A stretch of DNA of 64,000 bases. Origin: Enchytraeus crypticus. Lineage: Eukaryota > Annelida > Clitellata > Enchytraeida > Enchytraeidae. The notes beneath the pieces were generated by a model. That model was not told where the DNA came from, did not search any database, and was given only the letters and a program-made list of their open reading frames with translations. Positions 8,901-46,743 of the stretch are shown piece by piece. How positions within the stretch are numbered: the first letter of the stretch is position 1; the number at the start of each line of letters is the position of its first letter. The DNA lies in assembly GCA_905160935.1 (NCBI GenBank), contig CAJHZI010000769.1, positions 343,501-407,500 on the forward strand, written 5' to 3'. A program made the position numbers and the translations under genes.

Positions 8901-9635
8901 AAACGCGTCCATTTAAGTTGAAAGGGAATTAATCGAATATCTCTAGGTGTAGGGTTGCTAATTCGAAATTAAATGTTAGTAGTAGTTTAAAAACTTTTAA
9001 TAATATACTGCGTAATTGCTATAGAATATATGCGATGCTTTTGGGTAAACAGGATTGTTTTCTCAGGGAATGACACCCTTGCCCAATAAATGTTAGTCGA
9101 AGCTGAAGAAGGCATAGGAGGCCCATCTCTTCCAAATCTTCAAGAATAATGGTATATCATGTTAGATGATTTAAAGATTCACTCTTATGCAGACATGAAG
9201 AGAAAACGGAAGACAGAGAAGTGTGGAGACGTTATACACTGTGTACCTGCCAGTGGGCTGTGCACTAAGAGAGAGATATGCAGTAAGAGAGAGATATGCG
9301 ATGCTATGTAGATATGTGAGTGCAATTGAAGCTGAGATTTCTTTAACGAGTATACTTGCAGGCTGGCACGCCTATGGTTTACTACAGCGGGCTGATAGGA
9401 AATATGACGAGGCCATCAAGTGCTATCGCAATGCACTCAAGTGGGACAAGGTTATTATCTCATCTTAAACTCTAATTAACTATTAATCGTTTGATATGTC
9501 TTTGAACATTGATATTTAAATTATTAATTATTTTAATATTTTATCTTTTAATTACTTTGTAGGAATAGTAATAGTTTGAGCATTTGATCATTTTGCTGCA
9601 TCATTACGTATTAAAAAAAGATTGTATCGGTGTGT

Positions 9636-9687
<52 letters not shown>

Positions 9688-12600
9688 GAAAATCTACAGA
9701 TACTGAGGGACCTGTCTATGTATGTGTGTAGGTGTGTGTGTGTAGGATAATCTACAGATACTGAGGGACCTGTCTATGTATGTGTGTATGTACGTGTGTG
9801 TGTGTGTGTGTGTAGGATAATCTACAGATACTGAGGACCTGTCTATGTATGTGTGTGTGTATGTGTGTGTAGGATAATCTACAGATACTGAGGGACCTGT
9901 CGCTACTACAGGTTCAAATGAGAGATCTAGAGGGCTATAGGGTATGATCTACGAATCAGTTGTAGAGTCAATCAATCAATCAATAGATTAATCAATAAAC
10001 CCAGCCAGTTGGCTGTAATGTCTGTTATTCAATTAATCTTTTGCTATATCAATCTTGTGCTCTTGTATTCCTGCTCTATATCCTATTGTTTTTTATTGTA
10101 TTGGAGCCAGTGGCGATGTCTGTAAGATATTCTACTTTGGATCGATATTTGCGGGGTTCAAATCCTGGGCTCGCCTGTCACTGACATCGCTTTTGAGTGA
10201 GGAAGCTGACGTTAGCATTAACTTTACCAGCTCTTTTGTTGATGTCGTTGGAGGAAATTCTTTGCATATAACACAAGATGTTGATTAGGGATTCTGAATT
10301 ACTGGTTTAAAGTGAGTAGCGATCAAAAATAGGTTTACTTTGTTTGTATTATGTTGATTAAAAAGTTAGATACAAAATGTAGACACAGTTAACATCGCAG
10401 TCAAGTTAATAAAATAAAAAAAATTATATATTTCAGTAGAATTGTTTTAAATAAATTTGAGCATGCAAATTCACATTTTAAAATTTGCTCGATTGATTTA
10501 TTAATATCTTGAAAATGTTGTTCAGGATTAATTGTTGTTGTTGTTACAGGATTGATTGTTGTTGTCATTATTAAAGGATTGTTGTTGTTGTTGTTGTTAC
10601 AGGACACGAGGTATCAGTTGTTGATACTGCGTCCTGCACAGAGAGCTTCGTGGATTGGCTACGCTATGGCCTATCATCTGCTCAGCGACCACGAGATGGC
10701 TCTGAACATTCTAGAAGAGTTCAGAAAGACTCAGTCGCAAGAAGTAAATATGTCAAGTGTATCTGTGTGTGTAATAAAAGCCAATGTTAACGTCAGTTTC
10801 CTCACTCAAAAGCGATGTCAGTGACGGGCGAGCCCAGGATTTGAACCCCGCACATACAGATCCGTGGTCGAGTACCTTACCGACATCGCCACTGGCTCCA
10901 GCCTGTGCTATCAAGAATCTCATGTTTGCGGTCTATTATCTGATTCTCTCTTTCTCTCTCTCTCTCTCCCTATTGCTCTGCCTAGTAGCTGGTTCCAGGT
11001 ATATATTCTTACTCGCAGTCTGCCTTCACATTCCACAAATTCAGTCTGCATTCTGCATTCCATCGATCTGCAAGTTAATCCTTTCAAAAAGGTTGTGCTT
11101 TATCCGCATGGCATCTAATTTGCAAGTATGGTAGACTACGAAAGTTACAGGGTTTCTATGAAAATCTAGTAGAAATATTTTTAACTGGACTTAATGTGCA
11201 GGTGTAGTTTGAATCGTTGTGAGTTATTTACAGCTACTGTCAAGGGCTGCAAATACCCGTTAATGACTGTATTGAGTAGACACTCAATACAGTCATTAGC
11301 ACTCCAGTCATACACTGGCTGGAGCCAGTGGCGAAGTCGGTAAGACACTCGACCGCAGATCAGTATGTGCGGGGTTCAAATCCTGGGCTCGACCGTCACT
11401 GACATCGCTTTCAAGTGAAGAAACTAACGTTAACATTAGCTTTACCAGCTTTATCACTCAAAATTTGATGATGATACTTATCTCATAGTACTATACTACA
11501 ATCATCTCATCTTTATTTAACAGAAGAAGAACTAATGAACTTAGAAAGCTGGGCTACTGTATAAAATCTACAGCTAAACTGAAGTAAATCTAAAGAAATT
11601 ATCTTTAAGGCACCTAGCTTGAAGCAGCGCTACTCAGTTTAAGTGCCGTACTTAGATGGAATAGAACGAGTCTCAAATGCTTGAGAGTCTCAATTTTGTG
11701 TAATTTACTTTTCCTCTTCCGTTCACATATCGAATCTCATATCCCCATGCTCGTGCAGTGATATATAACATATGGTGGTCTATGACAGAGATAATAGTAA
11801 AGCTGTTAAAGCTAAGGTTAACGTTGGTTTCCTCACTCGAAAGCAATGTCAGTGACGGGCGAGCCCAAGATTTGAACCCAGCACATACTGATCCGCGGTC
11901 GAGTGTCTAACCGACTTCGCAGTGGCTCCATGGAAAGAGGTGGAGAAGATCTATTCGTATCCCGACCCTGGTTGAACTGGGATTCAAGGGAAGAGGATAT
12001 GATGATGATAATAATGATTGATTTTAATTGGACTGTTGTTGTTGTTGTTGTACTGACAGATCTAGTCACATGACTATGAGTACAGTGAGATGCTCTTGTA
12101 TCAGAACTCTGTACTGTTGTTGTTGTTGTATTGACAGATCAAGTCTTATGACTATGAGTACAGTGAGATGCTCTTGTATCAGAACTCTGTACTGTTGTTG
12201 TTGTTGTATTGACAGATCAAGTCTTATGACTATGAGTACAGTGAGATGCTGCTCTATCAGAACTCTGTACTGTTGTTATTGTTGTATTGACAGATCAAGT
12301 CTTATGACTATGAGTACAGTGAGATGCTCTTGTATCAGAACTCTGTACTGTTGTTGTTGTTGTATTGACAGATCAAGTCTTATGACTATGAGTACAGTGA
12401 GATGCTGCTCTATCAGAACTCTGTACTGTTGTTGTTGTTGTATTGACAGATCAAGTCTTATGACTATGAGTACAGTGAGATGCTGCTCTATCAGAACTCT
12501 GTACTGTTGGACGCGGGTAAGAATGAGGAAGCTTTAAAACATCTCGAGCAGTATGAACAGCAGACTGTTGATAAACTGGCCGTCCAGGAGACGAGAGGTG

Positions 12601-13833
12601 GGCGAGAATATTTTTTATCTTTTTATTATCATACGTGTCCCCGTGTTGTGTCCCTGGGTTGTTTGAAGAATTGACCAAGCGGTGACTGCACGTGTTTGTA
12701 GAAGACGACTAAAGCACTAAGATCCATACCAATGTCAGAAATGGCATTCGGTAGGTGAGTGCCTAGACTCCAGAAATTGCTACAAAAACTTAAATGAATG
12801 GAAAAGTCTCAAATAGGGGATTGACTGATGATATGATGTTGGACAGAGAGGATTTGAGACAATCTGTTTGTATCCCAACCCTAGTTAAACTGGGATTCAA
12901 GGGAAGATGATGATGATGTTTTATCATACGTGTAGCATAAAATATAGACATTTACCATGAACAGGTGCCGTGCATGAACAGAGATTGGGGTCTACAGTGG
13001 GTGCTTATGCCACTTGTGGGCCTCTATCTCTGTTTATTAGATGTATGAATAGAAGTAGCTAAGAAGTACCAGACCATTTTTTGATCACTCGTTTGCTTTC
13101 GTTTAGGACCTTCTCCTCAGCTCATTTCAGATTGGTCTGGGTGAATTGATCTGTAGTGCTGTGTGCTGCGGGGACGTCCCTGACGTCATACTTATATGAG
13201 GAAACGGACGTTAAATCTTTATTATTATTATTATTATTATTAAGAGAATATATATGTGGACGTTAAATAGGACGTTAAACCTTTATTATTATTATTATTA
13301 TTATTAAGAGAATAGATATATCAAGTTTTGCATTCAATGCTGTCACTTCTACAAGTTACTAGAAGCGAGAGAGCCCAGTTTAACGTCTGTTGCTATGCAC
13401 AAATGACTGCACGAGGCGACACAGCTGTGTGCTGAACTCATGTTGCTTGTCAGTCAATCTTGCTGCCTCCTCAGCCACCAGTCAGCTGTACAGCATTTAC
13501 TTGTTGTAGCGACTAGTTTAGTATTTGTAATTCTTTGTGTTTGTTGTATGCAACCATGCTGTCTTGAAAAATTGTATTGAATGTATTGTATTGTGCTGTA
13601 CTGAAAGTTGTATTGAACGTATTGTATTGTATTGTAGGTAAGCTGTATCTACGGCTGGAAAGACTGAGTGAGGCAGAGAGTGTGTATAGGAAGCTGATTG
13701 ATCGTAACCCTGAGAACTGCTCATACTACACGGGTCTAGAGAATAGTGTTAAACCTGGTAAGTGTGCACATACACATGTACGCACACACATGTACACACA
13801 CATACACACACCTACACTGACACACAAACATGT

Positions 13834-13864
<31 letters not shown>

Positions 13865-16800
13865 TATACTCATGTGCACACACACACACGTAACCCTGAG
13901 AACTGTTCATACTACATGGGCCTAGAGAATAGTGTTAAACCTGGTAAGTGTGCACATGCACACACGTGTACACACACATACACACACACAATCATGTACG
14001 CATACATATATACACACATAGTGGACCTGATGGAATCCTTGTGGCTTGTGCTTTAATGCATTATTAATTAATTGATTGTTTAATTAGTTGTTTAATTTAT
14101 AGATTTGCAGTTGCAATGGCAGAGAGATTAAAACTCTTTGAAGGCATTATGCAGCTTTATTTATTAGTTGTTTTATTGATTGATTTCCTCGTGTTGTGTC
14201 GTTCGAAATGCTGAAGAATAGACTTTCTATGGACTGCACGTGTCGTAAATGGTGACACAGCGCTAAGTTCAAGACCAACGTTAGAAAGGGCTTTCGGTTG
14301 GTGGGGCCTAGGCTCCAGATATTGCTGCAAAAATTTTCCAATTCCAACCCTATATATACTGAGATTCCAGTGAAGATGAAGATGATTACGATAATGTTTG
14401 ATTGATTTGTAGGTACTGTGGCAGAGAGAGTAAAGCTGTACGAAGACATTATACAGCTGTATCCCAGAGCGCTGGCTCCCAAGCGTCTAATGCTTCAGTT
14501 CATCACTGGTATGTCCTGATGATACCTGTCCTAAATTCTGTCTGTTAATTCTGCATGTAAGGCTTCTGAATTCTCTAGGGGCTGTTAGTGACAGCTTAAA
14601 GATTAGAGCAAATTGTAATGCGATATTTGATGCTTTTGTTGACTTCTGCATGTGTTATGTTGTGCTATGTGTGTACAGGTGATGTGTTATGTGTGTTATG
14701 ATGTGTGATGATGTGTAATGAAGTGTTATGATGTGTGTACAGGTGATGTGTTATGATGTGTGATGATGTGTCTACAGATGATGTGTGATGATGTGTCTAC
14801 AGATGATGTGTGATTATGTGTCTACAGATGATGTGTGATGATGTGTCTACAGATGATGTGTGATGATGTGTCTACAGATGATGTGTGATGATGTGTCTAC
14901 AGATGATGTGTTATGATGTGTCTACAGATGATGTGTGATGATGTGTCTACAGATGATGTGTTATGATGTGTCTACAGATGATGTGTTATGATGTGTCTAC
15001 AGATGATGATGTGTCTACAGATGATGTGTTATGATGTGTCTACAGGTGATGTGTTATGATGTGTCTACAGATGATGTGTTATGATGTGTCTACAGATGAT
15101 GCGTGATGATGTGTCTACAGGTGATGTGTTATGATGTGTCTACAGGTGATGTGTCATGATGTGTCTACAGATGATGTGTTATGATGTGTCTACAGATGAT
15201 GTGTGATGATGTGTCTACAGATGATGTGTTATGATGTGTGTGCAGGTGATGTGTTATGATGTGTGTGCAGGTGATGTGTTATGATATGTTATGATGTGTG
15301 ATGATGTGTCTACAGATGATGTATGAGGATGTGTGTACAGGTGATGTGTTAAGATGTATTATGTGCGTACAGATGATGTGTTTCGTGTGGAGGTGGACAA
15401 GTTCTTGGTGAATTCTCTGAGGAAGGGAGTACCCCCTCTCTTCCACAACCTACGTGCAGTCTATGAGGACAAGAGCAAGGTCTCTCAACACAACATGACG
15501 TTATTAACTGAATAGTTTAGACATCATGTAGAAATTAAATATATCTTTGGTGTCAATAACTAGCAGACAATAATAGCAAATAAATGACAGAATGTGAGAG
15601 TAATTTTAAGGAGCAAATTCTTTCTTGAAAGTTTGCGAATATTTCCTCAGTTGCCTCTCTAGAGCTAGTTGACTCTGTAATCTATTTAACACCAATGACG
15701 ACTGGACAGGTTCAGTCGATATTGGCATCTGGCCGGCCATAGCAAGGGTATAGCCTCAGCATTGTGCTGTATTCAGGTGAATAAGTGATAGACTACAGAT
15801 CTATAGGTGCCAGGTTCTAGGCTCATCTCGCCTGTCTATAGCGCTATGGTGATGCTACAACATTAAACTTGGATTGCTGACTGGTCAATGCTGCTTGTCA
15901 TACTCTGCCAGCAAGTTCTGCTAAAGTATAAATTTCTAGGGAACCTCTATCTCTCTAGTGTTTTGTTAAGTTGCAGGCCCATACTCTTATATCTACTAAC
16001 TGTCTGCTTTTAGGCTCCATTAAGAGCGATGGGTCGATCAATAAGTTATAGTCTTCACAAAAGGCTGGATCGTATGCACAGTTTGAATTCGAGTATCTTA
16101 CCGACTTCGCCATGGCTGGAGACAGTGGCGAAGTCAGTAAGATACTCGACCGCGGATCTGTGTGTGCGGGGTTCAAATCCTGGGCTCGCCCGTCACTGAC
16201 ATCGCTTTCGAATGCGGAAACTGACGTTAATATTAGCTGTACCAGATTTTACACCCCAAGTAAACTGTAGTTGGAGAATAAAACTTCTGAGAAGTCATTT
16301 TTCTTGAATTATAGGCTACATTAACCAAGTTTGCATTCCACAGTTGTTGCTTAGTCTCTTATGACACATGTAGTTTGTGTTTGGTGGCACGGATGCAGCA
16401 TGGTAAAATTTTACTTGATCTCTTTAGGGGTCATGTGAATTTATTGCTATACTTCAATTGCTGTGTTGTTGTTGTTGTAGGTTAAGATATTAGAAGAGTT
16501 AACGCTGACTTATGTTAAGAATCTTGAAGCTTCTGGAACATTCTCATCTCCAGCAGGTATTGTTGAAGCTGTCTCCTTATGTCTCTCTGTGTATGTATGT
16601 ATATATGTGTATATGTGTGTGTACGTTAGTATATGCTTGGCTGTATGTACAGTGTATATGTAGATTTTTTCAATTGGTCATGTGTAAGTGAATGTATGTG
16701 TGTGTGTGATTGTTTAATTAAATTTAAATTAAAGCTGATAAAGCTAAGGTTAGCATCAGTTTCCTCATTCAAAAGCGATGTCAGTGACGGGTGAGCCCAG

Positions 16801-18038
16801 GATTTGAACCCCGCATCATCTGATCCGCGGTCGAGTATCTTACAGAGATTATTACTGTGAGTGGTTAGCATTTGCGGGAATTTCTGTTATCAATTAAATG
16901 CAGCCTAAGTTCGCTTATTTATTTATATTTTGTTTTAAATATTTTACTCCGACCCTGGCTAAACAGATTTAAGGGAAGATGATGATGATGATGATTATAT
17001 ACTTATTTATATATTGGGCATATATTTAGCACATTTATAACTTCTAGAGACTGTTGTTTTCTCTCAGAGACAAGCCTAGCCAGGCTGTCTCTGAGAGTGA
17101 CCTGTTTATCATTTGAATATTATATAATGACTGCTATGAAACTTATATCTTGAACTTTATGGTTATATTGAACTTTCTATTTGCTGTTTGTTCCATGTAT
17201 GTTTCTACGTTTTCTGCGGTATGTCAGATTTCATGCAATAACGAATATATAACTAAATTAGCTTAGCAGCTTCTGCTTATTGTTTATGTAAGACTTGTAT
17301 GATAGTGTATGAACTAGGAAAAGAGAGAGAGATGTGTTTATTAAATCAAAGAGAAATCACTTCATACGTGTAATTCTATCAAAATTAAACAATAGAATGA
17401 AAATGACTAACTGAACAGCATCACAATAAAAATAAGAAAATATATATATACTCACTGATAGAGATTTTCAATGCACTGTGTGCGCTTGTGTGTTTGTGTT
17501 TTGTCATTTTTCATACCCTATAATAAATAACATGCATAATAGTGAAATGATCAACTATGTTGATATCTATCACTTTTAATACCACATGTTAAATCCGTTA
17601 GGCAATTTAGTCCATTTTCCGTGTAACCAGTCCAGTGAATGTCCGAGATTTTACTCTCAGATCAGCGCAGCTGGGATTCGAACCCACGAGGGTTTGATTC
17701 ACCTCAGGGTCTGTCATTTAAAACTTCATGACGTTATATACACCCTTAACCATTGCGCTATTGAGACATTCCTAGTTATATGTTCGTGCATTATATCCAT
17801 ATTTGTAAGGATATTACTAGTCGCTTTAGTTAATAGAGACACGTAGGAAGGTAAGGATTTAGAGAGCTTCATGTACTGTGTGTGTATGCCCGCGAGTGTA
17901 TGTGCTTGTATCTGTGTTTATATGTATAAGTGTTTATATATGAATGTGTTGTGTATGTATATGAATATGTGTATTCTTGTAGGTGTATTTTTATGTAAGT
18001 ATGTGTTTATATGTATAGATATTCCATATGTACTGTAT

Positions 18039-18123
<85 letters not shown>

Positions 18124-20730
18124 TTATATATGCACGTGAGTACATGTAAACGTGTGTCAGTAGATAAGATGGAGAACGGTGAGAGGGACAAGGAGGTGGA
18201 TGGAGAGGTGGAGAGGGAGAGCCCCACGACATTGTTGTGGACGTACTACTACCTGGCTCAACACTTTGATGAGCTGAGAGACACCGAGCAGGCTCTGCTC
18301 TACATCAACAAAGCCATCGCTCACACCATGACTCTCATTGAGCTCTATGTTGTCAAGGCTCGCATCTACAAGGTTAGCCTTGAGCGTTGACTGAGTTTAA
18401 AAGTTCTCGTATCTAGTCAGTATAATCAAGTGTAATCAATCAATCAGTCAATAAGCATTTAGTGTCCGGTTCCTCCCCATAAGGCAATGTCATTGATGTC
18501 TCTTGCAGACTCTACACAAGCAGGCGCCAAAGCACCACACGATGATGACTGAGTGCACAGAGGGAACAAGAGAAAACGAGATCAAAACAGTGCAAGTCCA
18601 TGATCCAAGGCAAGCTGGTCAAAATTTAGACCTATGGCGGAACGAGATGGGTTTTTAGCTTGCCAAGGAAAGTACCAATACAATTACAAGATCGAAGATC
18701 TTGTGGCAGATAGTTCCATATTATGTTCCATATGGGCTGATTGCTATATCAACTCTAAATGTTGTGTGTAGCACGCAGGTAATATAGAAGAGGCAGTCAA
18801 ATGTTTAGATGAAGCTCAGTCATTGGACACGGCTGATCGCTACATCAACTCTAAGTGTGCTAAGTACATGCTGAGAGCTAACATGATCACTGAGGCTGAA
18901 CAGATGTGTGCCAAGTTCACCAGGGTACGTACTTTGTATCCAGATTATACGTAGTGAAATTTACCAGAACTGCTACCATCTTTCGTCATTCAATCATTAG
19001 CCCGACTTAGGTATCAGGAACAAGGGAAAAAAGCCAAGGGCTTATTTCAATCCCCAATCATACATGATTACAACATTCAGCTTATTTTTAAAACAAACTC
19101 ACCGACACCGCATTCACAACCTCCTCACTCAAAGAAATACCGGGTACATCTGGCTGGAGCCAGTAGCGATGTTGGTAAGGTATTCGACAGCGGATCAATA
19201 TGTGCGGGGTTCAAATCCTGGGCTCGCCCGTCACTGACATCGCTTTCGAGTGAGGAAACTAACGTTAACATTAGCTTTACCAGCTTTATCTATTTCGTTG
19301 CTATACTGGGAATACTTTCAGTATATAAATGTAGCACAGTGGCTGACTGGGTAAAACCAGCAGCACAATCAGTGGTTATCTCTGGGTCCAGGGCTCTAAT
19401 TCTGTGCCTGCCTTGTCTCTGATATGCTTTAAAGCAGGTAACTATAACGGTAGCTTTATGCTAGGGTATGTGCTCATCGGTACGCGTGTGTGCGAGCATG
19501 TGTGTAGGAAGGTGTAAGTGCTGTAGATGACTTACATGAGATATAATGTGTTTGTAGGAAGGTGTAAGTGCTGTAGATAACTTACATGAGATGCAGTGCA
19601 TGTGGTTTGAGACGGAATGCTCGACTGCCTATCAAAGACTTGCACGATACGGTGAGGCTCTGAAGAAATGTCACGAGATTGACCGGGTATGTTCTCTCTC
19701 TCTCTCTATCTCTGTCTCTTTCTCTCTCTCTGTCTCTCTTTCTCTCTATCTTTCTCTCTCTCTCGCTCTCTCTCTCTATATATCCCTCTTTCTCTCTCTT
19801 TCTCTCTCTTTCTCTCTATCTTATATTTCCCTCTTTTTTATTCCGCCTTTCAGCTGGTGATATAAATTTCCTAGTTACAAATACCCAGCTGGTATTATTG
19901 TGGTGGTGTTCTTGTGGTCTCTGTGTACTCAGTCGTCATCGTGTGCTGCCAAAGCACCATGCGATGACGACTGAGTACACAGAGACCACAAGAGAAAGCG
20001 AGATCAAAGTAGTGCGAGTCCAAGATCCAAGGTAAGCGGATCAAATTTAGACCTACAGTATAGCAGAAAGAGATGGGTATTTAGCTAGCCAAGGAAAGTA
20101 CTAATACAATTACAAGATCGAAGATCTTGTGGCAGAGTATTGTCAGAGTATTGTATTATCCTTATTGTCAGAGGAGAAAACATGAAGGAGCGTCTGCCCA
20201 TGGCAGATTTAATGTTTGGTACAGTGAAAAGGTTTTTACTAGAGGAACGAAGACTACGAGAAAGTTGATAGATGGATAAAAGATCAGATAGATAGGATGG
20301 TTTACCATAATTTAAACTTTTGAAGGTCAAGGAAAAAATCTTTCATTTTATTCGTTGATAGAACCCTCAATTGTCACCTGTTTGTGTAGAGTCCACAAGA
20401 GACGTCCCTGACATGGCCTTATGGCGAGGAACCGAACGTTAAATTCTTATTGATTGACTATTAATAGTATTATAATATTTTTTATAAAATAAATTTGTTG
20501 TCCTTGACCGATTGAGGATTGATTGATTGATTGATTGGTTGACTGCAGCACTTTACAGAGATAATAGAGGATCAGTTTGACTTCCACACGTATTGATTGA
20601 TTGATTGATTGATTGACTACAGCACTTTACAGAGATCATAGAGGACAAGTTTGATTTCCACACGTGTTGATTGATTGATTGATTGCAGCACTTTACAGAG
20701 ATGATAGAGGACAAGTTTGACTTCCATACG

Positions 20731-20764
<34 letters not shown>

Positions 20765-21007
20765 CTGCAGCACTTTACAGAGATCATAGAGGATCAGTTT
20801 GACTTCCACACGTACTGATTGATTGATTGACTGCAGCACTTTACAGAGAGGACCAGTTTAATTTTCACAGGTGTTGATTGATTGATTGATTGACTGCAGC
20901 ACTTTACAGAGATAATAGAGGACTAGTTTGACTTCCACACGTGTTGATTGATTGATTGACTGCAGCATTTTACAGAGATCATAGAGGACCAGTTTGACTT
21001 CCACACG

Positions 21008-21049
<42 letters not shown>

Positions 21050-21292
21050 CTGCAGCACTTTACAGAGATCATAGAGGATCAGTTTGACTTCCACACGTAC
21101 TGATTGATTGATTGACTGCAGCACTTTACAGAGAGGACCAGTTTAATTTTCACAGGTGTTGATTGATTGATTGATTGACTGCAGCACTTTACAGAGATAA
21201 TAGAGGACTAGTTTGACTTCCACACGTGTTGATTGATTGATTGACTGCAGCATTTTACAGAGATCATAGAGGACCAGTTTGACTTCCACACG

Positions 21293-21326
<34 letters not shown>

Positions 21327-24300
21327 CTGCAGCACTTTACAGAGATCATAGAGGATCAGTTTGACTTACACACGTATTGATTGATTGACTGCAGCACTTT
21401 ACAGAGATCATAGAGGACCAGTTTAACTTCTGCACGTATTAATTGATTGATTGATTGATTGATTGACTGCAGCACTTTACAGAGATCCTAGAGGAGCAGT
21501 TTGACTTCCACATGTACTGATTGATTGATTGATTGATTGACTGCAGCACTTTACAGAGATCATAGAGGACCAGTTTGACTTCCACACGTACTGCATGCGT
21601 AAGATGACGCTGAGGTCGTACATGGATTTACTACGTCTGGAGGATGTGCTGCGCAGTCACCCGTTCTACTTCAACGCCGCTCGCACTGCTATACAGGTTC
21701 TGACTGACACGATGAAATAAGGCTTAGTGCCACTGTTAACTTTTGTCTCATCTCTCTAAAGTGCTATTTTTAATCACCGGACTGGCTTTCGTTTAAGACC
21801 TTACTGCTCAGCACATTTCTTTTGCAGATTGATTCGAGTGAATTGATTTGTAGTGATGTGTGCTGTGGGCACGTCCCTAACGTCATCCCTGGATGAGGAG
21901 TGGAAATAACATTAAACCATTTATTATTATTGTTGACATAGAAGCCCAGGATTTGAACCCATGGACACTGATCCGCAGTCAGATATCTTAACGACATCAG
22001 CATTGGCTGCAGCCAGTGGTGTCATGTACTGACATGCTGCTTCCTACTCTATTCTCCGTGGAATTGCTCTAATTTAATTTAATTAAATCTTAAATATATC
22101 ATGCATTAACGTCTGCCTTTCACATCTCTCTCTTTGTGCACTGCTTACTGGCAGGTCCATGGAATATAACATAAGCCCCCATTCACGTTTGTTTTTCCTT
22201 CTCATGCTTGCATATGAGTGGATCTTTAAATCATCTGTACCATTCCTTTTGATATACCAGCATTCTTGGAGGATTCTGCTTATGATGAGGTGGACTCTAT
22301 GCCTTCCTCTGCTTCGACAAAATTTACTTGGCAGGGGCGTCATTCCCTTAGAAAACAACCCTGTTTACCCAACCTTTCATATCTATATCATCTATAATCA
22401 CTAAACTACTTTAACATAATTGCTGTGTTGTACTGCGATACAAGCATGTGACGATCTCTCTATACGTCCTGCCTAATGGCAGGACCAAGGCTTGTATCTC
22501 CTCAACGCAATGCTTTCCTAACGTTGTAAGAAAAGGTTAAATTAAAGAGCTTAGTCATCTGAACTCAATGGTCTTTAGAATAACTCGAGATGTTTCTATG
22601 TGCAGATATACCTACGCCTTCATGACAACCCATCATCTGCCGCTGAATCATCTAACGACTCTAATCAAGGTAAAATCGTGGCTCTGCTGCTGTTAGTCTT
22701 ACTTTTTTTTAGAGCTACTTGGCTAGTATTTTATTTATTATATTTCTTTGTCAGATTTGCTTTCGGAATATTCAGTGTTGACCTAAAATTTCTATCAGAT
22801 GTTTATCTGATGAAATTCTGAGTGCCACGGAGTACATATGTTTAGGTGTGTGTAAGCTTGTATATCTCTGTCTAAATGTACTTGTATATACTTATGTACT
22901 TTTATGTACTTATTATTATTATTATTATTATTATTGTTGTTATTATATGGACGAGTATAGATGGTGTGTCTTTTAACTAGTATACACTTTCAATGTGTGC
23001 TTATATATAGAAAAGTACGAGTACTCGAGTACTTGAGGGTCTGTGTGTCACTGGCATTCATTGGATATGAAAAACTGGTTTGAAACTGGACTATGTGTTG
23101 ATGTGTGCTCATGTGTGTGTATGTGTAGATGTATGTATGCTCATGTGTTTGTGTATGTGTAGATGTATGCATGCTGCTCATGTGTGTATTTGTAGATGTA
23201 TGTGTGCTTATGTGCGTGATATGTGTAGATGGATGTGTGCTCATGTGCTTATTTGTAGATGTATGTGTGCTCAAGTGTGTATTTGTAGGTGTATGTGTGC
23301 TCATGTGCGTGATATGTGTAGATGTATTTGTACACACGTCTGTATGTATATGTAGATGTATGTGTGCTCGTGTGTGTGTATGTGTAGATGTATATGTGCT
23401 CATGTGTATTTGTAGGTGTATGTGTGCTCGTGTGTGTTTATGTGTAGATGTATGTGTGCTCATGTGTGTGTATGTTTGTAGATGTATGTGGGCTCATGTG
23501 TGTGTGTACATGTAGATGTATGTGTGCTCATATGTATGTGTAGATGTATATGTGATCATGTGTGTGTGTGTGTATAGAGAACCTTACCCCGGCAGAGTTA
23601 AAGAAGTTGAAGAACAAGATGCGAAAAAAGAACGTTCAGGAAGCGATGAAGAAGGAAAAGCAGAAACAAGAAGAGCAGCGACAGCCACAGAACAAGAACA
23701 AGAATCAAGATGCTGACCTTGAGGGGCCTAAAGAAGAAGAGCTGCTCCCTGAAAAACTTGTCAAGGTCTTCTTCTCTATAGTTTATGCCACTCTTCATAG
23801 AATTATATTTTTGCTTAATAGTTGGAGCAGTTATAGAAAGCCTCTTGGCACACTGGGTAGAGAGCTCACCTCTTGAATGAGAGGTCGTGAGTTCGAGACT
23901 ACTTAGCGACGTGGGTTTTTCTCTTCTAAGGGGCAAATAAAAGCTAGTCGTGTACGCTTGGTGATGTCAGGCCGATGGATAGCCGACCTTAAGGTTCCAT
24001 TTCCAATCTAGTCCCCTCCGTGTCGACCCTGAATAAGGATTAACGACACACTAGTTATTAATACACTAGTAATATTTATTAACAACACTCAAGTTCTTTT
24101 TTATGTGGGGCGGGTAAAAGTTGCTAAATTCAAAATGGAATATGTTGATGGCAATGCTTTGAAACGTGCAGAAATGCAATAAGAGATGCTTTAAAACTCG
24201 CCTGCTGCAAATTATAAACTAGGAGTGTGAGCATGCCATTGTTTTCAGTAGGTTTGAAATTGTATGTTTAGTATAAAGATAATGAAAGCTACGAGTGAGG

Positions 24301-24699
24301 AAGTTGTGAATGCGGTGTCGGTGAAAAGTTTTAAAACCAAGCTGGATGTTGTAGTCATGTATGATTGGGGATTGAAATAAGGCCTTTGCTTTCTTCCCTT
24401 GTTCCTGCTACCTAAGTTTGAAAAAGGATTAGAATAACGAAAGATAGTAGAAGTTCTAGTAAATTCTGGTAAATAATGGATGTATGTAGTATTCATCTCT
24501 GTATATTGATCAGGTAGAAGAAACCTGTAGAAGATGATGAAGATGATGTGTATTGTATTCTTGCAGGTAGAACAACCTCTAGAAGAAGCTGTCAGGTTCT
24601 TGAAGCCTCTCCAGTCACTAGCAGCCAATAGACTTGAGACACATCTAATGTCATTTAGGATCTACTCTAGAAAAGGTCTGTCCTCTTTTTTATCACAAT

Positions 24700-24748
<49 letters not shown>

Positions 24749-35844: not shown

Positions 35845-38800
35845 ATGTCTGAGGGTAACGAGAGCTTTGGAGTGATCGACTACATAATATTTTCTCTCGT
35901 CCTCCTCACGAGTTTGGCTATCGGCATCTACCATGCCGTCAGCGGAGGAAAGCAACGGACAACGAAAGAGTACCTGATGGCTAACCGCCGGCTCTCTACT
36001 CTACCAGTGGCTCTGTCGATCCTCGTGTCGTTTGTCAGTGGTATCCTAGTCCTAGGTGAGTTGTTGATCTACTCTACGTAGATCACTAGCAGAAGTTTTT
36101 ATTCGACGAGTATAGCAAGACGTAGAAGCGTTGTGGTTTGAAAAACATTTGTTAATCAGCTTGTTGTCTTTAGGTATTTGCATTATGAAACGTTGATAGA
36201 AACTTTTACTTTTTTGTACTATTTCTGAAATGTGCGCTCTTTGCGTCACATCTGTTGATGGGAAGGATTTTATTGTGTGCCTCTCCAACGTATCATAGTT
36301 TATTCTCGTAAACCACTAACATTTTCAGGCCTATACGGTTAGGGTTAGGAATAAACGCGCAATGAATAAACAGATGTATCTGGAAAACAATGTCAAGCAC
36401 TAAGTGCTACTCTTTGGGCAAGTTTAGAGCTTGGCTTGGTCTTCATAGTGCTAAATATTGTGCTGGATGTACAACAGAATTCTGAAAATGTTAAGAGTTT
36501 TGTTGTGATAAGAATGCCATCTTAGACGCACACATTCGTACAGAGCTGATGATCTGTTAGACTACCATAGTGCTTTATATTACTTTGGACTGAATTTCTG
36601 GATTTTGGAATTTGCACCATTTTTGGACCTTCTTTTTTTGCTCGCCGGCTTGATTTTGTCTCAACAGTGTTCGATGTTGTCATTGATGACTGTAGCACTC
36701 TAATTGTTGTTATTGTTATTATTATTATTATTACATTGTTGTTGTAAAATGTTCATAGTTGTTTATATTGCCATACTGCTGTAGTAGGATATTCATAATG
36801 CTTGATGTTGTCATGTTATATAGGCCCGTCTGCAGAGATGTACTCGTGCAACACACATCCTATGATAAAGAGTGGTGGTCTATTGCCTCTAATGTTCTTA
36901 GTGCCTATTCTTGATTATTTATTTTATTTTTATTTATTTATGTATTTTATTTATTTTTTAATTCTTGATTTAGTGCATATTCTTGATTAATAGTGCTTGA
37001 TGTTGTCATGTTACAGGCACTCGGCTGATGATGAGGCTAGTGCCTCTAATTCTTAGTGCTCGATGTTGTCTTGTTACAGGCACACCCGCAGAGATGTACA
37101 CGCGCGGTACACAGCTGATGATGCGGCTGGTCGGCTACTGTCTCGCTTGTTTTCTCTCCAGTCGTCTTCTTGTTCCGCTCTTCTTCTCTCTCCGCGTCAC
37201 GAGCTCGTTCGAGTACCTAGAGCGTCGCTACCAGTCCCAGGCCGTCAAGCTCATAGGCACCGTAGGCATGCTCGTAGGCAACGTCTTCTACATGGGTCTA
37301 GTCGTCTTCACGCCGGCCGTGGCTCTTGAGGCGGTGACAGGTTTTCCGCTGTGGGCTTCTATAGGAGCCACAGCGGTAGTGGCAACACTGTATACAGCAG
37401 TGGGTGGACTGAAGGCGGTGATATGGACAGATGTATTCCAGGCAGGGGTGATTGTAGTGGGGATGATTGCTATTGTGGGCGTGGGCATGTATAAAGTGGG
37501 CGGCCCTGTCAGAGTGTGGGAGCTGAACGATCGATACGATAGGATCGTGTTCTTCGACTTCAACCCGGACCCAACAGTGAGACTCTCGTTCTGGTCTGCT
37601 GTGTTCGGTGGGCTGTTTTCTACACTGACAATATTTGGCGTGGGACAGACCAGTGTACAGAGATACTGCGCCCTGCCCACTCTGGCACAGGCTCAAAACT
37701 CTGTCTACCTCAACATTCCATTCCTCATCGTCGTGAACGCTCTAGCGGCGAGCGTGGGGCTCGTAATGTTTGCATACTACGCTGATCTCGGGTGTGACCC
37801 GCTCTCTGACGGAGAGATCAGGAACTCCAATCAGCTACTGCCGTTCTTCGTTATCAAAGTCCTGAGGGACGCTCCTGGTGTCCCTGGAGCCTTCCTAGCC
37901 GTTCTGTTCAGCGGAGCGCTCAGTTCTATGTCCAGTTCTCTCAACTCTGCCGCTGCTGTCACGTGGCAGGATATCCTACGATATCTCTTCAGAGGTCGCG
38001 AGGTCAAGGAATCTCTGAAGGTTCTTATTTCTAAGCTCACAGTTCTTGTCTACGGCACTCTCACGATATTTGTAGCTCTGTGCACTAAGTACCTGGGAAT
38101 GCATGTCCTTCAGGCTTCTATGAGCTTCACTGGAGCCACAATGGGTCCAACCCTGGGCATGTTTCTGCTCGGTGCTCTGAGCAGGAGGGCCAATGCTAAG
38201 GGAGCCGTGGTCGGGTGTGTCGTATCGGCCGTGTTCTCTATGTGGCTGGCAATAGGTACCTTCATCGTGTGGCCTCATAGACAGACACTCCCCGCCCCCA
38301 CACATAACTGCTCTAGTCGTCTAAACTCTTCTCTCATCAGCGCTACAACAGAGAGCACTACATTGGCCAGTCCAGAGTCAAAGGGTCTGAACAAGTTGTA
38401 CGAGATATCGTTCCTGTGGTACAGTTTCATCGGCTGCTCCATCACAATGATCGTTGGCTACGTCGTCAGTCTGGCCACGAGGTCTCCCTCTGATCCCAAA
38501 CCCGACGATGATCTCATCATATCTCTGCGACAACAGCTCTGTTGTTGTTGCTTTCCCGCAGGGTTCAAGGCGTATCAGCACGGAATGAACACTATAGTGC
38601 CAGAGAGCAAGGATGATCAGAGCAGTGCTCCTCTTGCTGTAGACACGACTCACTGCAAGCTGCTGAGTGTTAGTACAGTGAATGAGGGTAAATCAGCGAG
38701 TGAAACATTGAGTCATGATAAATCATTGAGTGATGGTAAATCATTGAGTGATGAAAAATTATTTAGTGATGGTAAATCGTTGAGTGGTAGTAAAGCATCA

Positions 38801-39058
38801 AGTGATAGTAAATCTTCGAGTAAATCATTGATTAGTGGTAAATCATTGAGTGATGGTAAATCATTGAGTGATGGTAAATCATCAAGTGATGGTAAATCAT
38901 TGAGTGATGGTAAATCATCAAGTGATGGTAAATCATTGAGTGATGGTAAATCATCAAGTGATGGTAAATCTTTGAGTAAATCATTGAATAATGGTAAATC
39001 AGAGATTGGTGGTAAATCATCGAGTGAGGTAAGAGAGATACTAACAGAAAAACTATAA
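35845..39058 (+). CDS. SLC5-family sodium/solute symporter (SLC5A6/A8/A12-like), two coding exons
   Basis: Exons 35845-36055 and 37080-39058 join in phase to 729 residues. The family couples Na+ import to uptake of small carboxylates or vitamins at the plasma membrane; the substrate cannot be read from sequence. Seen: N-terminal DYIIFSLVLLTSLAIGIYHA and QRTTKEYLMANRRL (TM1 region), GTPAEMYTRGTQ, SSFEYLERRY, TAVGGLKAVIWTDVFQ, then SGALSSMSSSLNSAA near residues 347-361, the Ser-rich TM8 segment that forms the Na2 site in this fold. A Cys cluster (QLCCCCF) and a Ser/Asp/Gly/Lys repeat tail (about 608-718) follow. The family is usually ~600-640 residues; the excess is the tail. The start is the first ATG (MSEGNES); CTGTCAG just upstream could be an acceptor of a 5' UTR intron. 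Almost all of the protein in one exon is unusual for animals. Confidence 0.9.
36585..36740. repeat. Dispersed repeat, family E (inverted), in the transporter intron
   Basis: GGATTTTGGAATTTGCACCA, TTTGCTCGCCGGCTTGATTT, GTGTTCGATGTTGTCATTGA, then (TTA)n. A shorter related piece is near 36,400-36,470. Confidence 0.6.
36795..37130 (+). repeat. Exon-edge copies before SLC5 exon 2 (two decoys plus the real start)
   Basis: GCTTGATGTTGTCATGTTA followed by an AG and exon-2-like sequence occurs three times, with exon-like starts at 36,824, 37,017 and the real 37,080. The first decoy reads in phase GPSAEMYSCNTHPMIK, against GTPAEMYTRGTQLMMR in the real exon. The second reads GTRLMMRLV, missing the middle, then runs on as CTCTAATTCTTAGTGCTCGA into the next unit. 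CTCTAATNTTCTTAGTGC also ends the first unit, so the copied block includes intron sequence. Confidence 0.85.
38690..39020 (+). repeat. In-frame 18-bp minisatellite coding the SLC5 tail
   Basis: About 18 units of the form (A/T)(C)(A/G)AGTGATGGTAAATCA encode S-L-S-D-G-K or S-S-S-D-G-K. Units at the start and end are diverged (HDK, GSK, NNGK, IGGK), while those in the centre are near-identical, the usual pattern of central homogenisation. Length is always a multiple of three. The tail is predicted cytoplasmic, hydrophilic and disordered, with many Ser that could be phosphorylated. Confidence 0.9.
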
Positions 39059-39880: not shown

Positions 39881-39881
39881 G

Positions 39882-41870: not shown

Positions 41871-42084
41871 ACGTCACTTAATAGTTCGTGAAACAATAAA
41901 TCATGTACATTCAGTCTCCCCCCAAGCATGAGAGAGTAGATGCTTGGATATACAGGACTAACACACGCAAGACTAACCAACGAAGTGATAAATATCATCA
42001 TGGATGACCATTCAATACCTATGTATGTTGCTTATTAAGTACTTTTTATGACAACGCATAAGTTTCGATTCCAAATTAGACTGA

Positions 42085-42205
42085 GGCATTAGCATGTTGG
42101 TAAGTTGTTTGACTGTTAATCAACCGGTACAGGATATAAATCCTTTGTCCATTGCTCAACCGTCGCTGATGTGCTTTTAACATGAACTGACGTTAAACTT
42201 GGCTT
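42085..42205 (+). mobile_element. Highly diverged SINE family A relative
   Basis: ATTAGCATGTTGGTAAG, TATAAATCC, ACCGTCGCTGATGTGC and GAACTGACGTTAAACTTGGC keep the order and spacing of family A. Probably an old copy or sister subfamily. Confidence 0.5.
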
Positions 42206-43982
42206 TAGATCCTCAAGTTAAGTTCTAATATCACTTCTGTGGACAGAAATGATTTGTAACTAATTTGACGTTTTATTGCTTAAATCTATTTGCACTTTTG
42301 TAGGATGTAATGTTTGGAAATAAAATAAAGGCGTTTTGTAGTTGTCGTATATTCAACCCTCTTCAGCACTTAAAACACCTTCTGAGGTTGTTTCCATTGC
42401 CTTCCTCAAAGACTGGCTGCCTTACTTGGTTCTTACAGTACAGGTAAATTTCAATTGAACCAATTCTAATCAATTTTAGCTGTGAGGTTAAACATTCAAC
42501 TGTTAAGTGTTAAACATAGCAAATAGGTATGACTGCGAATCACTTTAAAAATTGCAGAAAACTTAATGTTTGCCCATCCAGACCATTGCTTCACGTGGGT
42601 AGCTAGAACAAATCAGAGTGGTCACTGTCTGCTATTAATTTATGCAATAAACACGTTAATCAACAGTGCTTCTCGAAACCATTTGTTTCGGGAAGCAAAA
42701 AAATGACATTTAGTTAAGCCAATAGTGATCTGTATTCCCAGAAAGTTTCAGGTTTCCACCAGTACTGTACTCTCAAAGAATTGCGTATTCAGGACTTCCA
42801 GCTCTTACAAGTTCCAATTAAATACCTTAAAATGCTGGTTGTTGTCAGGGACTACATTACTATGCACGCTATTAACATTTTCAAGAACACTACATCGCCG
42901 ACAAATATTTACCTGTAAAAACCACAAAAATCTGATTTTATTTCCACTTACATGACAAGCATAAATTAAAATTTCTGCCTAATTTAAATCAGCAATTACA
43001 CCAAAAGCTACCTGCAACTTATTTCATTAAATGATAGTAGAACTAAAGCATTGTACTTCAGACAAGAATAGCAGAGCATTGAAGCTGCCGCACAGTGGAT
43101 GAATGTAGACTCAGCTTTGGTACACATGTCTACAGTATTTACTTATAAATGAAAAGCAACAATGTCAAAGCAATCGAATAAAACCCTAATGTCACTGATT
43201 TCAATTAAAGTGGAGAATACAAAACTTCTGTGACAAGAACTTAACTAGGATGTCTGAGAGAAGTGAGGCAGTGTGTGCCTAGAACACCGTGCCGCACTAA
43301 ATTAAGGTTAAAAGATATTGGTGCAGAGAATTGTTAGTTCCGCTCATCATAATAAAACACTCGTTACGACAGCGATCTGTTAACTACAAACATATATCAA
43401 GAATGTGTACTACGCATTTTAATACAGACACACACAATGTATAGAAACACACGGCCCCACAGAGTTCAATATTTATACTAGCAAATAACTGTTCTTATAT
43501 ACACACCTATCTCACACTACCCCTCTCTCATCCAACGCGCAATCAACGACTGCAATGTTTCCACCACAAGAATTTTGCAGCAGAACTCATAGCAGCAGAT
43601 GATCACTACCAACAATAGCCTCGCCATAGCTACCCACACATCTCGACATGGACCACACGACGTAGAATGCTCACAGAGGCTCTAGTCCTGTCAGGATTTC
43701 GTTCTGTAATTAACAGTGTAGTCCTCAAACAGCACAGCAGTGACTGATCACCTCACGCAATCCATCAGGTGGAGCAAATCTCTCAACGGAAAACAACTGA
43801 ACCTTGTTAATTATACGCCATGCACCACGTCAATCTACTGTATCTTCATACTAGCTAGCTCTTCATGCATACACACAGTCATCTCGTAGTCCTCTCTACG
43901 CTCACAAAACTCCTCTACTGTGTAAGGTATCCAACACTTAGATGAAATCCTCTTCTCTCAGTCTCCGCTTCCTGTCCAGTGT
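42206..43982. other. Region downstream of SUMO (minus), probably including its 3' UTR
   Basis: AT-rich and unusually free of repeats. No coding frame of note. A TTTATT (minus-strand AATAAA) occurs near 42,934, but whether it is the SUMO poly(A) signal cannot be told. Confidence 0.35.
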
Positions 43983-46743
43983 TTACGAGGAGTGGCTGAC
44001 TCCGCCCGTCTGCTGCTGGAACACGTCTATAGAGTCTCCGTCCTCCATGTCCAGCTGTCAATCAAACAATCATCTTCATCAATAAATTAATTAATTAAAT
44101 CTAACTTTAGTTTAAACAGCTGCTTGTTACATAGCCGTAAAGTTGACGTTGTTAAAGACAGTTTCATCTCTCAAAAGAATTATCAGTAATGGACGAGCCC
44201 AGGATCCGCAGTCGAATATCTTACCCACATACCGCTGGTTTCAGCCAAAATTTATATCAAAGCGCCGAGGACAGCAGCACAACAACAAATACAACAAGCA
44301 GCACCAACCTCACATAACAAGTTTAGCAAAGAATGTCAGTGAGTAAAAATATCACATCTGATCACAATCAAAATGAATAGAAAATCAAAACAAACATTGA
44401 ATGATCATATAGAGGAAAACAGACGTCAGAGAAAATATATCGTCATTTCAGTGAATGATGCTTAAAGCCATTTAACCAGAACAAAATCCAGTCATACATA
44501 ATCAGTTACACCTGTCAGCCATACGTAACCAGACAGACATGGCACAGACTACAAATGCTTACAAATTCTTGACTTAAGCGAGTTGTTAACAATGACGGAA
44601 TGTTTTTAGTGTCACAGAACAGAAGTAAAATAACAAAACTACGGACCTACTGATAGTAAGTTGTAACAATCACATATTGGAATTTATGCAAAGAAAGCAC
44701 CTAACAGAAGAACAGACTAAAACCTGTCAATCAATAATCACAAACCTGTGTGGGCGTGTCCGTCTCGTTGATAGGCTGTCCATCAAATCTGAACCTCATT
44801 GATCCCATCTTAACTCCCTACACACATAATACGACACGTTAATTCACCACAACTAATCCATCTCAACTCCCTACACACATAATATAACACGTTAATTCAC
44901 CAATACTAATCCTTCTAACTACCTACACACATAATATAACACGTTAATTCACCACTACCAATCCTTCTAACTCCCTACACACATAATATGACACGTTAAT
45001 TCACCACAACTAATCCATCTCAACTCCCTACACACATAATATAACACGTTAATTCACCAATACTAATCCTTCTAACTACCTACACACAATATAACACGTT
45101 AATTCACCACTACCAATCCTTCTAACTACCTACACACATAATATAACACGTTAATTCACCACTACTAATCCTTCTAACTACCTACACACATAATATAACA
45201 CGTTAATGCACTACTACTAATCCACCCTAACTCCCTACATATATAATAAGACACATACGTTAATTCTACTAATCCATCTTAACATGTATGCATATGCGAC
45301 AGTGGATGTATGAGTGTGTGACAGTGGATGTATGAGTGTGTGTGTTAGAGTGGATGTGTGTGTTAGAGTGGATGTATGTGTGTGTGTGTTAGAGTGGATG
45401 TATGTGTGTGTGACAGTGTATGTATATGTGTGTGACAGTGGATGTATGAGTGTGTGACAGTGGATGTATGTATGTGTGACAGTGTTTGTTTGTATGTGTG
45501 TGTGACAGTGGATGTATGTGCGCGTGAGGGTGGATGTATGTGTGTGACAGTGGATGTGTTCCTCACAGTTCTCTCGCAGTAAGCGGACATGAGTTTTCTC
45601 AGTGGAGTCATTTTCTTGATCTTAAAGTGGACCACGCTGCCATCCTGTCCCGTCACCTTCAAGTTAATGTGCTCGTCACTCTATCATCAATCAATCAAGC
45701 AATCAATCAATACCTTCAAGTTAATGTGCTCGTCACTCTATCATCAATCAATCAAGCAATCAATCAATACCTTCAAGTTAATGTGCTCGTCACTCTATCA
45801 TCAATCAATCAAGCAATCAATCAATACCTTCAAGTTAATGTGCTCGTCACTCTATCATCAATCAATCAAGCAATCAATCAATACCTTCAAGTTAATGTGC
45901 TCGCTCGCAATCAATCAATACCTTCAAGTTAATGTGCTCGTCACTCTAATCAATCAATACCTTCAAGTTAATGTGCTCGTCACTCTATCATCAATCAATC
46001 AACTAAAAATAGTATACATCAATCACACAATCCACACTTTAAACTTAGAGCTGAAAAGCTGATAAAGCTAAGGTTAACATCAGTTTCCTCACTCGAAAGC
46101 GATGTCAGTGCGACAGGCGAGCCCAGGATTTGAATCCTGAACATACTGATCCGCAGTCGAGTGTCTTACCGACTTCGCTACTGGCTTCAGCCTTAACAAA
46201 CGAGCATTCAGTCTTCATATAGATGTTGTCACCCGTCACAATCCCTAAATGCATTTTGTTATAATATGCATAAATTAACTAAAAGAAAGTCTTTAACAGG
46301 AGAGTCTTTAATCATGATAATCGATCGAAAATCCAACACGTGAGGGTTGAAGGTATCTCCGAATCCGGCGTTTAAAATTCATCTTACCGGCTAACGAATT
46401 ATTGAAATTACAAATTCATACAACGATAATATATAAACGAAAAATCTACTTACAGCAGCGTCAGTCCCATTTCATTAAATCCCACTAAACTATAACACAC
46501 TCAACATTATTGTTTTTACACTAAAATTTCATAAATTTCATTGTATGCACTTTTACCGCCTAATAAATATTGCGAGGCCGCCATGACAGTAGCAAAACAC
46601 GACATTTTTTAATTACAAAAGATATTACGTCCATCTCTGACTAAATCGCGAAAAAAATGAGTATAAATATAGGTAGGTGTAAAGTTAGGCTGAAGAAAGT
46701 AGAAATTAGGCAGAAAAGTTCAAACCTTTTTCTCGTCAGCCAT
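43983..46743 (-). CDS. SUMO: SUMO (small ubiquitin-like modifier, SUMO2/3-like), four exons
   Basis: Minus-strand exons 46743-46726, 45680-45567, 44817-44746 and 44054-43983 join in phase 0 throughout to 91 residues. The precursor is cut by a SENP protease after the diglycine and then conjugated to lysines by E1/UBC9. Seen: [76 protein letters not shown], then a five-residue tail VSHSS. The beta-grasp core is closest to SUMO2/3 ([20 protein letters not shown]). The N-terminal arm is short and has no psi-K-x-E site, which SUMO2/3 use for chain formation. Exons 2 and 3 are each preceded in the direction of transcription by arrays of copied exon starts. The exon 1 donor (GTTTGA) is weak. Confidence 0.95.
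44150..44236 (-). mobile_element. SINE family A, internally deleted
   Basis: CAGTTTCATCTCTCAAAAGA, GGACGAGCCCAGGATCCGCAG (B box removed), GAATATCTTACC; in SUMO intron 3. Confidence 0.55.
44818..45290 (-). repeat. Exon-edge array at SUMO exon 3 (eight decoys)
   Basis: On the minus strand, units of about 52-53 bp carry ATTATGTGTGTAG followed by GGAGTTGAGATGGATTAG or GTAGTTAGAAGGATTAG, against GGAGTTAAGATGGGATCA in the real exon (starts 44,817). Acceptor-like sites fall near 44871, 44923, 44975, 45028, 45080, 45130, 45182 and 45235. A three-unit block of about 157 bp is itself repeated. The array lies in SUMO intron 2. Confidence 0.85.
45295..45560 (+). repeat. TG-rich minisatellite at the 5' end of SUMO intron 2
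   Basis: Units of about 26-30 bp (GTGTGACAGTGGATGTATG) run right up to the exon 2 donor (GTGAGG on minus at 45,566). They do not contain exon 2 sequence, but share GTGTGTTCC/GGATGT-like ends with the donor flank. Confidence 0.8.
45657..46000 (-). repeat. Exon-edge array at SUMO exon 2 (six decoys, exact 57-bp period)
   Basis: On the minus strand each unit is GATGATAG plus 24 exon bases coding SDEHINLK, then GTATTGATTGATTGCTTGAT and more (GATT)n. Exon-like starts: 45984, 45945, 45908 (truncated), 45851, 45794, 45737 and the real 45680. The last four steps are exactly 57 bp. In the intact decoys the 24 exon bases are bounded by AG and by AAG-GTATTG, so each looks like a 24-nt in-frame microexon. 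Confidence 0.95.
46055..46192 (-). mobile_element. SINE family A
   Basis: Same transcriptional orientation as SUMO, in its intron 1, about 70 bp upstream of the exon-edge array. Confidence 0.75.

Follow-up and report, generated by a model that had tools for sequence, protein, structure and literature searches.

Tandem copies of intron-exon boundaries ahead of coding exons in the annelid Enchytraeus crypticus, with a measured bias towards acceptors

The window analyzed in the present study, a stretch of 64,000 nt located at C671:343501-407500 in the 802-contig, 524,188,772-bp genome of the soil worm Enchytraeus crypticus (a clitellate annelid), carries the genes encoding NAA15, an SLC5-type sodium:solute symporter, and SUMO (Table 1). 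The COX1 gene of this genome, on mitochondrial contig C802, has an open frame under the invertebrate mitochondrial code and shares 95% identity with Enchytraeidae, with Mesenchytraeus, and with an entry under the name Lumbriculus. Amphioxus was rejected as the host on this ground and because Branchiostoma is absent from the names given among the 120 NAA15 relatives listed, of which the first to bear a name is a mollusc. Their exon structures were assembled from the sequence and together comprise 25 acceptors and 25 donors. All three genes contain introns in which copies of the boundary with the next exon, i.e., the intron tail plus the first exon bases, precede the real exon, and matching copies were detected in 15 of the 21 units tested (the three window genes and 18 regions elsewhere in the genome). 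Exons 4-22 of NAA15 shared 51-64% identity with the first ten relatives listed, and its product shared 58-61% identity with five homologues.

Table 1 Genes, boundary arrays, and diverged copies in the window (positions counted from its first base; TRF, found by Tandem Repeats Finder; z, exon-only test or its donor mirror)
Feature	Position	Strand	Details
NAA15 (NatA auxiliary subunit) gene	5924..28654	+	22 exons; 888-aa product; PF12569 matches
SLC5-type sodium:solute symporter gene	35845..39058	+	2 exons (35845-36055, 37080-39058); Pfam SSF PF00474, 1.8e-36
SUMO gene	43983..46743	-	4 exons; identified by translation
NAA15 exon 5 array	9661..9941	+	3 copies, runs into exon 5 (9873-9941); TRF; z 22.4
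NAA15 exon 7 array	12037..12597	+	5 copies, runs into exon 7 (12450-12597); TRF; z 43.9
Donor-side copy, NAA15 exon 8 end plus its donor	13889..13943	+	Real exon end 13757; z 35.6; boundary spanned
Diverged copy, NAA15 exon 9 start	14117..14160	+	Real start 14413; z 12.5
NAA15 exon 10 array, 25-bp unit	14753..15479	+	Precedes exon 10 (15373-15479); TRF; exonic part about 9 bases
NAA15 exon 14 copy	19508..19686	+	One copy (19508-19542), 50 bp ahead of exon 14 (19558-19686); z 19.4
NAA15 exon 15 array	20527..21696	+	14 copies (local alignment), runs into exon 15 (21547-21696); TRF; z 36.9
Weak diverged copy, NAA15 exon 18 start	24514..24534	+	Real start 24567; z 3.5; spanning score 32
Diverged copy, NAA15 exon 19 bases 16-44	25013..25041	+	Real start 25099; z 8.3
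NAA15 exon 22 copy	28334..28654	+	One copy (28334-28394), 102 bp ahead of exon 22 (28436-28654); z 35.3
Diverged copies, SLC5 exon 2 acceptor plus start	36832..37079	+	Ahead of real exon; z 7.3; boundary spanned
SUMO exon 3 array, 52-bp unit	44811..45248	-	Runs into exon 3 (44746-44817); TRF
SUMO exon 2 array, 57-bp unit	45655..45999	-	6 copies, runs into exon 2 (start 45680); TRF

The repeat units share one layout. At NAA15 exon 5, a unit of about 57-70 bp comprises a GT-rich intron tail, AG, and the first ~29 bases of the exon; at exon 7, the 78-bp unit comprises a (TTG)n tail, ACAG, and at least the first 60 exon bases, and the exon and the original tail have a 7-base match (ACTGTTG, read by eye); at exon 15, a (TTGA)n tail and CTGCAG are followed by the first ~47 exon bases, with higher-order repeats present. 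The single copies ahead of exons 14 and 22 contain the acceptor with the first 35 bases of the exon and the acceptor with the exon start, respectively. In SUMO, the unit at exon 2 consists of a tail, AG, and the first 26 exon bases, and that at exon 3 of GTGTGTAG plus 13 exon bases. Units of the clear arrays measure 25-102 bp, and the longest array in the window extends over ~1 kb. In addition, the intron tail at 18733-18771, ahead of NAA15 exon 13 (18772-18924), resembles an inner part of that exon (GGCTGATTGCTATATCAACTCTAA) and may be all that is left of an old array. A 45-bp unit duplicated at 25202-25288 starts 5 bases into the intron after NAA15 exon 19 and is donor-adjacent, without exon sequence.

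The copies were counted with two tests. In the exon-only test, the first 60 bases of each exon were compared with up to 2 kb of the preceding intron, with z calculated against 40 dinucleotide shuffles each, and in its donor mirror the exon tail was compared with the following intron; the boundary-spanning test required at least 6 intronic and at least 8 exonic bases and a score of at least 30. In the window, z exceeded 5 at 9 of 25 acceptors (NAA15 exons 5, 7, 9, 14, 15, 19, and 22, SLC5 exon 2, and SUMO exon 2), with NAA15 exon 18 borderline, compared with 1 of 25 donors (NAA15 exon 8), with exon 3 borderline (z 3.2; Fisher test for 9/25 vs. 1/25, P = 0.011). The spanning test detected copies at 12 of 25 acceptors (NAA15 exons 5, 7, 8, 9, 10, 14, 15, 18, and 22, SLC5 exon 2, and SUMO exons 2 and 3), of which NAA15 exons 8, 9, and 18 barely passed (scores 30, 30, and 32), and again at 1 of 25 donors. 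Two arrays were missed by the exon-only test, namely that of NAA15 exon 10 (z 0.3), with at least six spanning copies (the test counts up to six), and that of SUMO exon 3 (z 1.4), with three. An earlier note on this DNA had claimed about 12 of 25 acceptors, a figure that the spanning test reproduced. The exons it listed were mostly recovered, except that the exon 19 copy stops short of the boundary and is absent from the spanning list, where the exon 8 acceptor takes its place; the note also overlooked the clear copy at the exon 8 donor.

The same comparison of acceptors and donors, proposed in the earlier note, was extended to 18 regions (~160 kb) on other contigs, containing CCT chaperonin, adaptin, and myosin genes, the last in two regions only. 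Homology anchors came from family searches for CCT chaperonins, adaptins, and myosins, and a small phase-aware gene finder, for which the three window genes served as training set and the anchored exons as refinement, placed exons around them. Run without anchors and under a laxer exon penalty, the finder placed 16 of the 24 NAA15 and SLC5 exons exactly, among 52 predictions; with anchors, it covered all anchors of the first 16 regions. Unanchored predictions were counted only with a score of at least 4 and a length of at least 50 bases. Predicted pieces were also removed by hand, not blind, before counting (13, then 7 more). Among the 13, five resembled copies of the next exon's start (two in region L045, two in L048, and one in L053), a 21-base piece repeated in L047 accounted for four, the L051/L052 overlap contained one, and three looked spurious; among the 7, two lay at exon-head copies (L059), and the rest had low scores or little length. 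If kept, a few of these pieces would count as exons, and others would shorten introns.

In the 18 regions, 26 of 135 acceptors had exon-head copies and 4 of 136 donors had exon-tail copies (Fisher test, P = 1.2e-5), and the spanning test detected copies at 32/135 and 7/136, respectively. Hand removal altered these counts little: with nothing removed, the exon copies numbered 27/137 vs. 6/140 and the spanning copies 33/137 vs. 9/140. Including the window, the totals rose to 35/160 acceptors vs. 5/161 donors for exon copies (P = 1.5e-7) and 44/160 vs. 8/161 for spanning copies, and a control with one shuffle per site yielded no spanning match at the same 160 acceptors and 161 donors. Restricting the counts to homology-anchored exons left 20/86 acceptors vs. 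2/87 donors. When the anchored exons were combined with the window genes, bootstrapping by region gave 18-33% for acceptors and 0-6% for donors, and the bias was found in plus-strand genes (15/54 vs. 1/56) as well as minus-strand genes (14/57 vs. 2/56), bearing out the earlier view that it follows transcription. In reversed controls, exon heads had no match in the downstream intron (0/118 in the first 16 regions, 0/22 in the window), and exon tails had a single match in the upstream intron (0/117 and 1/22, respectively), at NAA15 exon 5, because the tail of this 69-base exon contains the copied head. Taken together, about a quarter of the sampled coding acceptors are preceded by boundary-spanning copies in the intron, such copies are ~5- to 7-fold rarer at donors, and the bias follows the gene strand and reaches beyond the window. 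In the same regions, a CCT exon is preceded by four or more repeats of a 21-base open piece (L047, 5607-5974 in reverse complement coordinates), which by the exon-copy and spanning tests is not a copy of that exon's start. Two single-frame CCT-like loci (L027 on contig C259 and L028 on C400) have identical match scores, which could reflect retrocopies, haplotigs, or the duplication of a stretch.

In all, 127 copies with an alignment score of at least 24 were found at the 35 acceptors that have head copies; their identities are 74-100% (median 94) and reach at least 95% in 57 of them, indicating a range from old to recent. The AG is retained in 101/127 copies, and in 50/127 the last 12 intron bases equal those of the real acceptor. 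The nearest copy lies 36-147 bp away in 33 of 35 exon-head matches, and 214 and 302 bp away in the other two. If a copy were spliced and the sequence from there to the real exon translated, an in-frame stop would be encountered in 123/127 cases; at similar nearest-copy distances in other introns, the background rate is already 85% (2415/2835), and stop enrichment was therefore judged uninformative as a sign of function. The genome was also searched with a 254-base query taken at the start of NAA15 exon 15; among the 40 of 76 candidates that were scored, the exonic part matched only the real exon and 12 places in its own upstream intron. Only one place matched at full length, and the remaining 39 listed matches involved the intronic end alone, a dispersed repeat. 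For this one array, introners or other mobile intron elements were rejected as an explanation, since the candidates scored included no dispersed exonic copies.

In the arrays, it is the last copy that stays in frame with conserved protein, and conserved NAA15 reads through this copy without insertions of repeat size. At its array-bearing junctions, comparison with the five homologues revealed no insertion of more than 2 residues; an insertion of 12-14 residues lies near the start of exon 12, an exon without an array, and the other alignment gaps lie near exon 3, near exon 17, and at both ends. Site strength alone can hardly decide the choice of acceptor, because 56 of the 127 copies score at least as high as the real site in a weight matrix trained on real sites. 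With long introns, splice sites that are closest across the exon are reported to pair preferentially (PMC9225289, as summarized), and this exon-definition rule would account for the last copy acting as the exon.

The distribution of repeated sequence along introns was assessed with 60-base windows, microsatellites masked, a copy of each being sought in the same intron (length of sampled introns: median 733 bases, 5th percentile 353). For windows 0, 30, 60, 100, and 150 bases from the acceptor, a copy was found in 29, 32, 28, 30, and 27 of 122 introns, compared with 17, 15, 11, 16, and 10 of 122 at equal distances from the donor (P = 0.07, 0.009, 0.005, 0.03, and 0.004, respectively), and at 200 bases in 21/121 vs. 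10/121. Over the stretch 0-160 bases from the splice site, copy-positive windows made up 23-26% near acceptors and 9-14% near donors, compared with 15% (58/384) deep inside, and the last ~250 intron bases contain sequence repeated within the intron at about twice the frequency seen near donors. An excess of the intron 3' end over the interior, by 1.5 to 2.5 times, is not firmly established. Per intron, exon heads were copied in 30/135 cases and exon tails in 3/135, with interior windows at 85/799 and 99/780; for exact matches of at least 20 bases, the respective counts were 17/135, 3/135, 54/805, and 56/789, with 21/118 near-acceptor vs. 10/118 near-donor introns. Relative to copies inside introns, those that cross donors are three- to fivefold rarer. 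Furthermore, microsatellites (period of up to 6) occurred in the last 60 bases of 47/135 introns and the first 60 bases of 16/135, and those in the last 60 bases accompanied head copies (17/30 introns with vs. 30/105 without, P = 0.008), while intron length made no difference to head copies (P = 0.25). Across 119 sampled introns longer than 300 bases, the tails are T/G-rich rather than T/C-rich (T 0.40, G 0.23, and C 0.11 in the last 60 bases), which seems unusual for 3' splice sites.

These results are probably best explained by regarding the arrays as minisatellites at acceptors of the type described as mirages in amphioxus, formed and kept as follows. The tandem duplications have their left end in a T/G-rich, often microsatellite-like intron tail and their right end ~9 to 60 bases into the next exon. 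A first duplication would be seeded, by slippage or microhomology repair, where the exon and the repeat tract of the intron share short matches, and the array would then expand as a minisatellite. The acceptor nearest the exon's donor would be chosen by exon definition, so that the gene stays functional and all upstream copies turn into intron; duplications crossing a donor would arise less often, be lost more often, or both. At several junctions the exon bases run directly into TTG-, TTGA-, or TG-rich sequence, which supports, and does not prove, seeding by the intron tail.

Several observations weigh against this explanation or limit its reach. Few arrays show clear microhomology at their junctions (NAA15 exon 7, with 7 bases, is one); of the 28 junctions inspected, most were too decayed or multi-copy to score, and systematic microhomology is suggestive at most. 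Use of the last acceptor is deduced from protein homology. Exon definition treats both ends of the exon alike and by itself predicts no depletion at donors; the scarcity there would therefore come from fewer seeds, selection, or both. The two intron sides are alike from 300 bases inwards (16 vs. 14 of 114 at 300 bases; 13 vs. 13 of 94 at 400), the 60-120 window near acceptors (28/122) exceeds the deep interior only modestly (58/384, P = 0.053), and the near-acceptor vs. near-donor difference at exact matches of 20 bases has P = 0.053. The excess of exon heads over the interior is ~twofold with non-independent windows (P = 0.022), part of it could stem from slower decay of exon-intron than of intron-intron pairs (one side being conserved), and it is gone at exact matches of at least 28 bases (heads 6/135 vs. 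46/805 and 38/789), a length at which heads are limited by their short exonic part. The link with microsatellites could likewise be inflated because arrays multiply their own tail.

The earlier note offered two causes, duplication associated in some way with the 3' splice site or survivorship, and the data favor a mixture. Survivorship alone, in which duplications arise evenly along genes, are tolerated at acceptors, and are purged in exons and at donors, is unlikely to be the full account. Copies that cross donors are probably selected against to some extent, as exon tails are copied less often than interior windows and donor-crossing copies are rarer than intron-internal ones, and the marginal near-acceptor excess over the deep interior also fits. 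However, survivorship cannot lift the rate above that of the intron interior, which exon heads exceed, and by itself it does not predict the 3' excess of repeats, as seen 30-210 bases before acceptors relative to equal distances after donors (P = 0.004-0.03); a 3' bias among young intronic duplications off the boundaries, once corrected for lifetime, would tell against it as well, and such a bias was partly seen.

A process acting at the 3' splice site itself appears less plausible. In its broadest form, duplication directed to 3' splice sites by transcription or splicing, beyond what microsatellites cause, would continually make tandem acceptors at roughly one in four coding exons, with only the last used, which we regard as distinctly doubtful; if true, the genome would be a natural library of repeated near-identical acceptors. 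A tie to the 3' splice site, splicing, or transcription (e.g., through R-loops or polymerase pausing at intron ends) is very unlikely to account for the arrays: repeat frequency does climb towards the acceptor, and the acceptor bias is equal in plus and minus genes, but the enrichment coincides with microsatellites in the intron tails, which are a simpler, DNA-level seed. Still less credence is given to selection of the arrays as useful, whether as spare acceptors, for stronger recruitment to the 3' splice site, or for regulation via unproductive splicing, for although the AG and the 12-base acceptor are often kept and nearly all copies would bring a stop, copies decay to 74% identity and the stop frequency is near that of intron DNA. 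Arrays are difficult to assemble, yet collapsed or falsely expanded repeats are scarcely conceivable as the source, given copies that differ from one another (74-100%), higher-order repeats in some arrays, matches in 15 of 21 units, a longest window array of only ~1 kb, and a published assembly built from PacBio and Illumina reads (PMC8460440, as summarized).

The mirage-type origin favored here has precedents. The earlier note knew of no described feature class of this form, a statement superseded by the amphioxus (Branchiostoma) mirages, which, as summarized in their reports (PMC3087553, PMC3902484), match it exactly: they are intron-exon boundary minisatellites in Adh3, the globin genes BflGb6 and BflGb9, troponin C, and PGBD5, with units of 10-160 bp, in which either boundary can duplicate, and they are reported not to disturb splicing and suggested to play a role in intron gain. 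As in the BflGb6 mirage, the tandem unit in E. crypticus joins the intron 3' end to the 5' part of the exon; as in mirages generally, the units span the exon-intron boundary and are minisatellite-sized, the real exon lies outside the copies, and many copies retain splice signals. Unlike the mirages, the arrays belong to another phylum and occur at about a quarter of sampled acceptors, and their acceptor-to-donor ratio was measured (44:8), whereas the amphioxus accounts, as summarized, merely note both boundaries. Minisatellites also occur at exon-intron boundaries of human segmental-duplication genes, where gene structure is changed (PMC2812944); they are reported to alter exons or give rise to introns in recent paralogues, with transcripts often supporting the retained form, whereas the E. 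crypticus copies appear purely intronic and lie in conserved genes. Intron sliding and gain in Drosophila likewise involve tandem duplication beside splice sites followed by intronization of one copy (PMC2891723, as summarized), although in those cases a new intron arises from duplication of a proto-splice site within an exon, while in E. crypticus existing acceptors are duplicated. Among the matches listed, as represented by titles and abstract beginnings and with only some of the searches so aimed, there was no annelid report of such arrays and no measured acceptor bias. The repeat type was first described in amphioxus, and the phylum, the prevalence, and the ~5- to 7-fold acceptor bias appear new.

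As summarized, mirages are reported from a handful of amphioxus genes, and their presence at about a quarter of sampled acceptors with a measured asymmetry would make them a system. If the sample is representative, the genome would offer very many natural tests of how the spliceosome chooses among near-identical tandem acceptors. The arrays also supply material from which intron sliding, intron gain, and unproductive splicing could start, and they allow one to ask why tandem duplications accumulate at the 3' ends of introns.

Other repeats were observed in the window. A dispersed element with a transfer RNA (tRNA)-like GGTTCAAATCC box was seen by eye in both orientations at 10800-10905, 11317-11450, 11815-11935, 16115-16240, and 19150-19290, and its sequence looks like that of a tRNA-derived short interspersed nuclear element. 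Two arrays fill the right end of the window (61986-63966), one with a 9-bp unit, (TAATAAACA)n, and a long one with a 26-bp unit.

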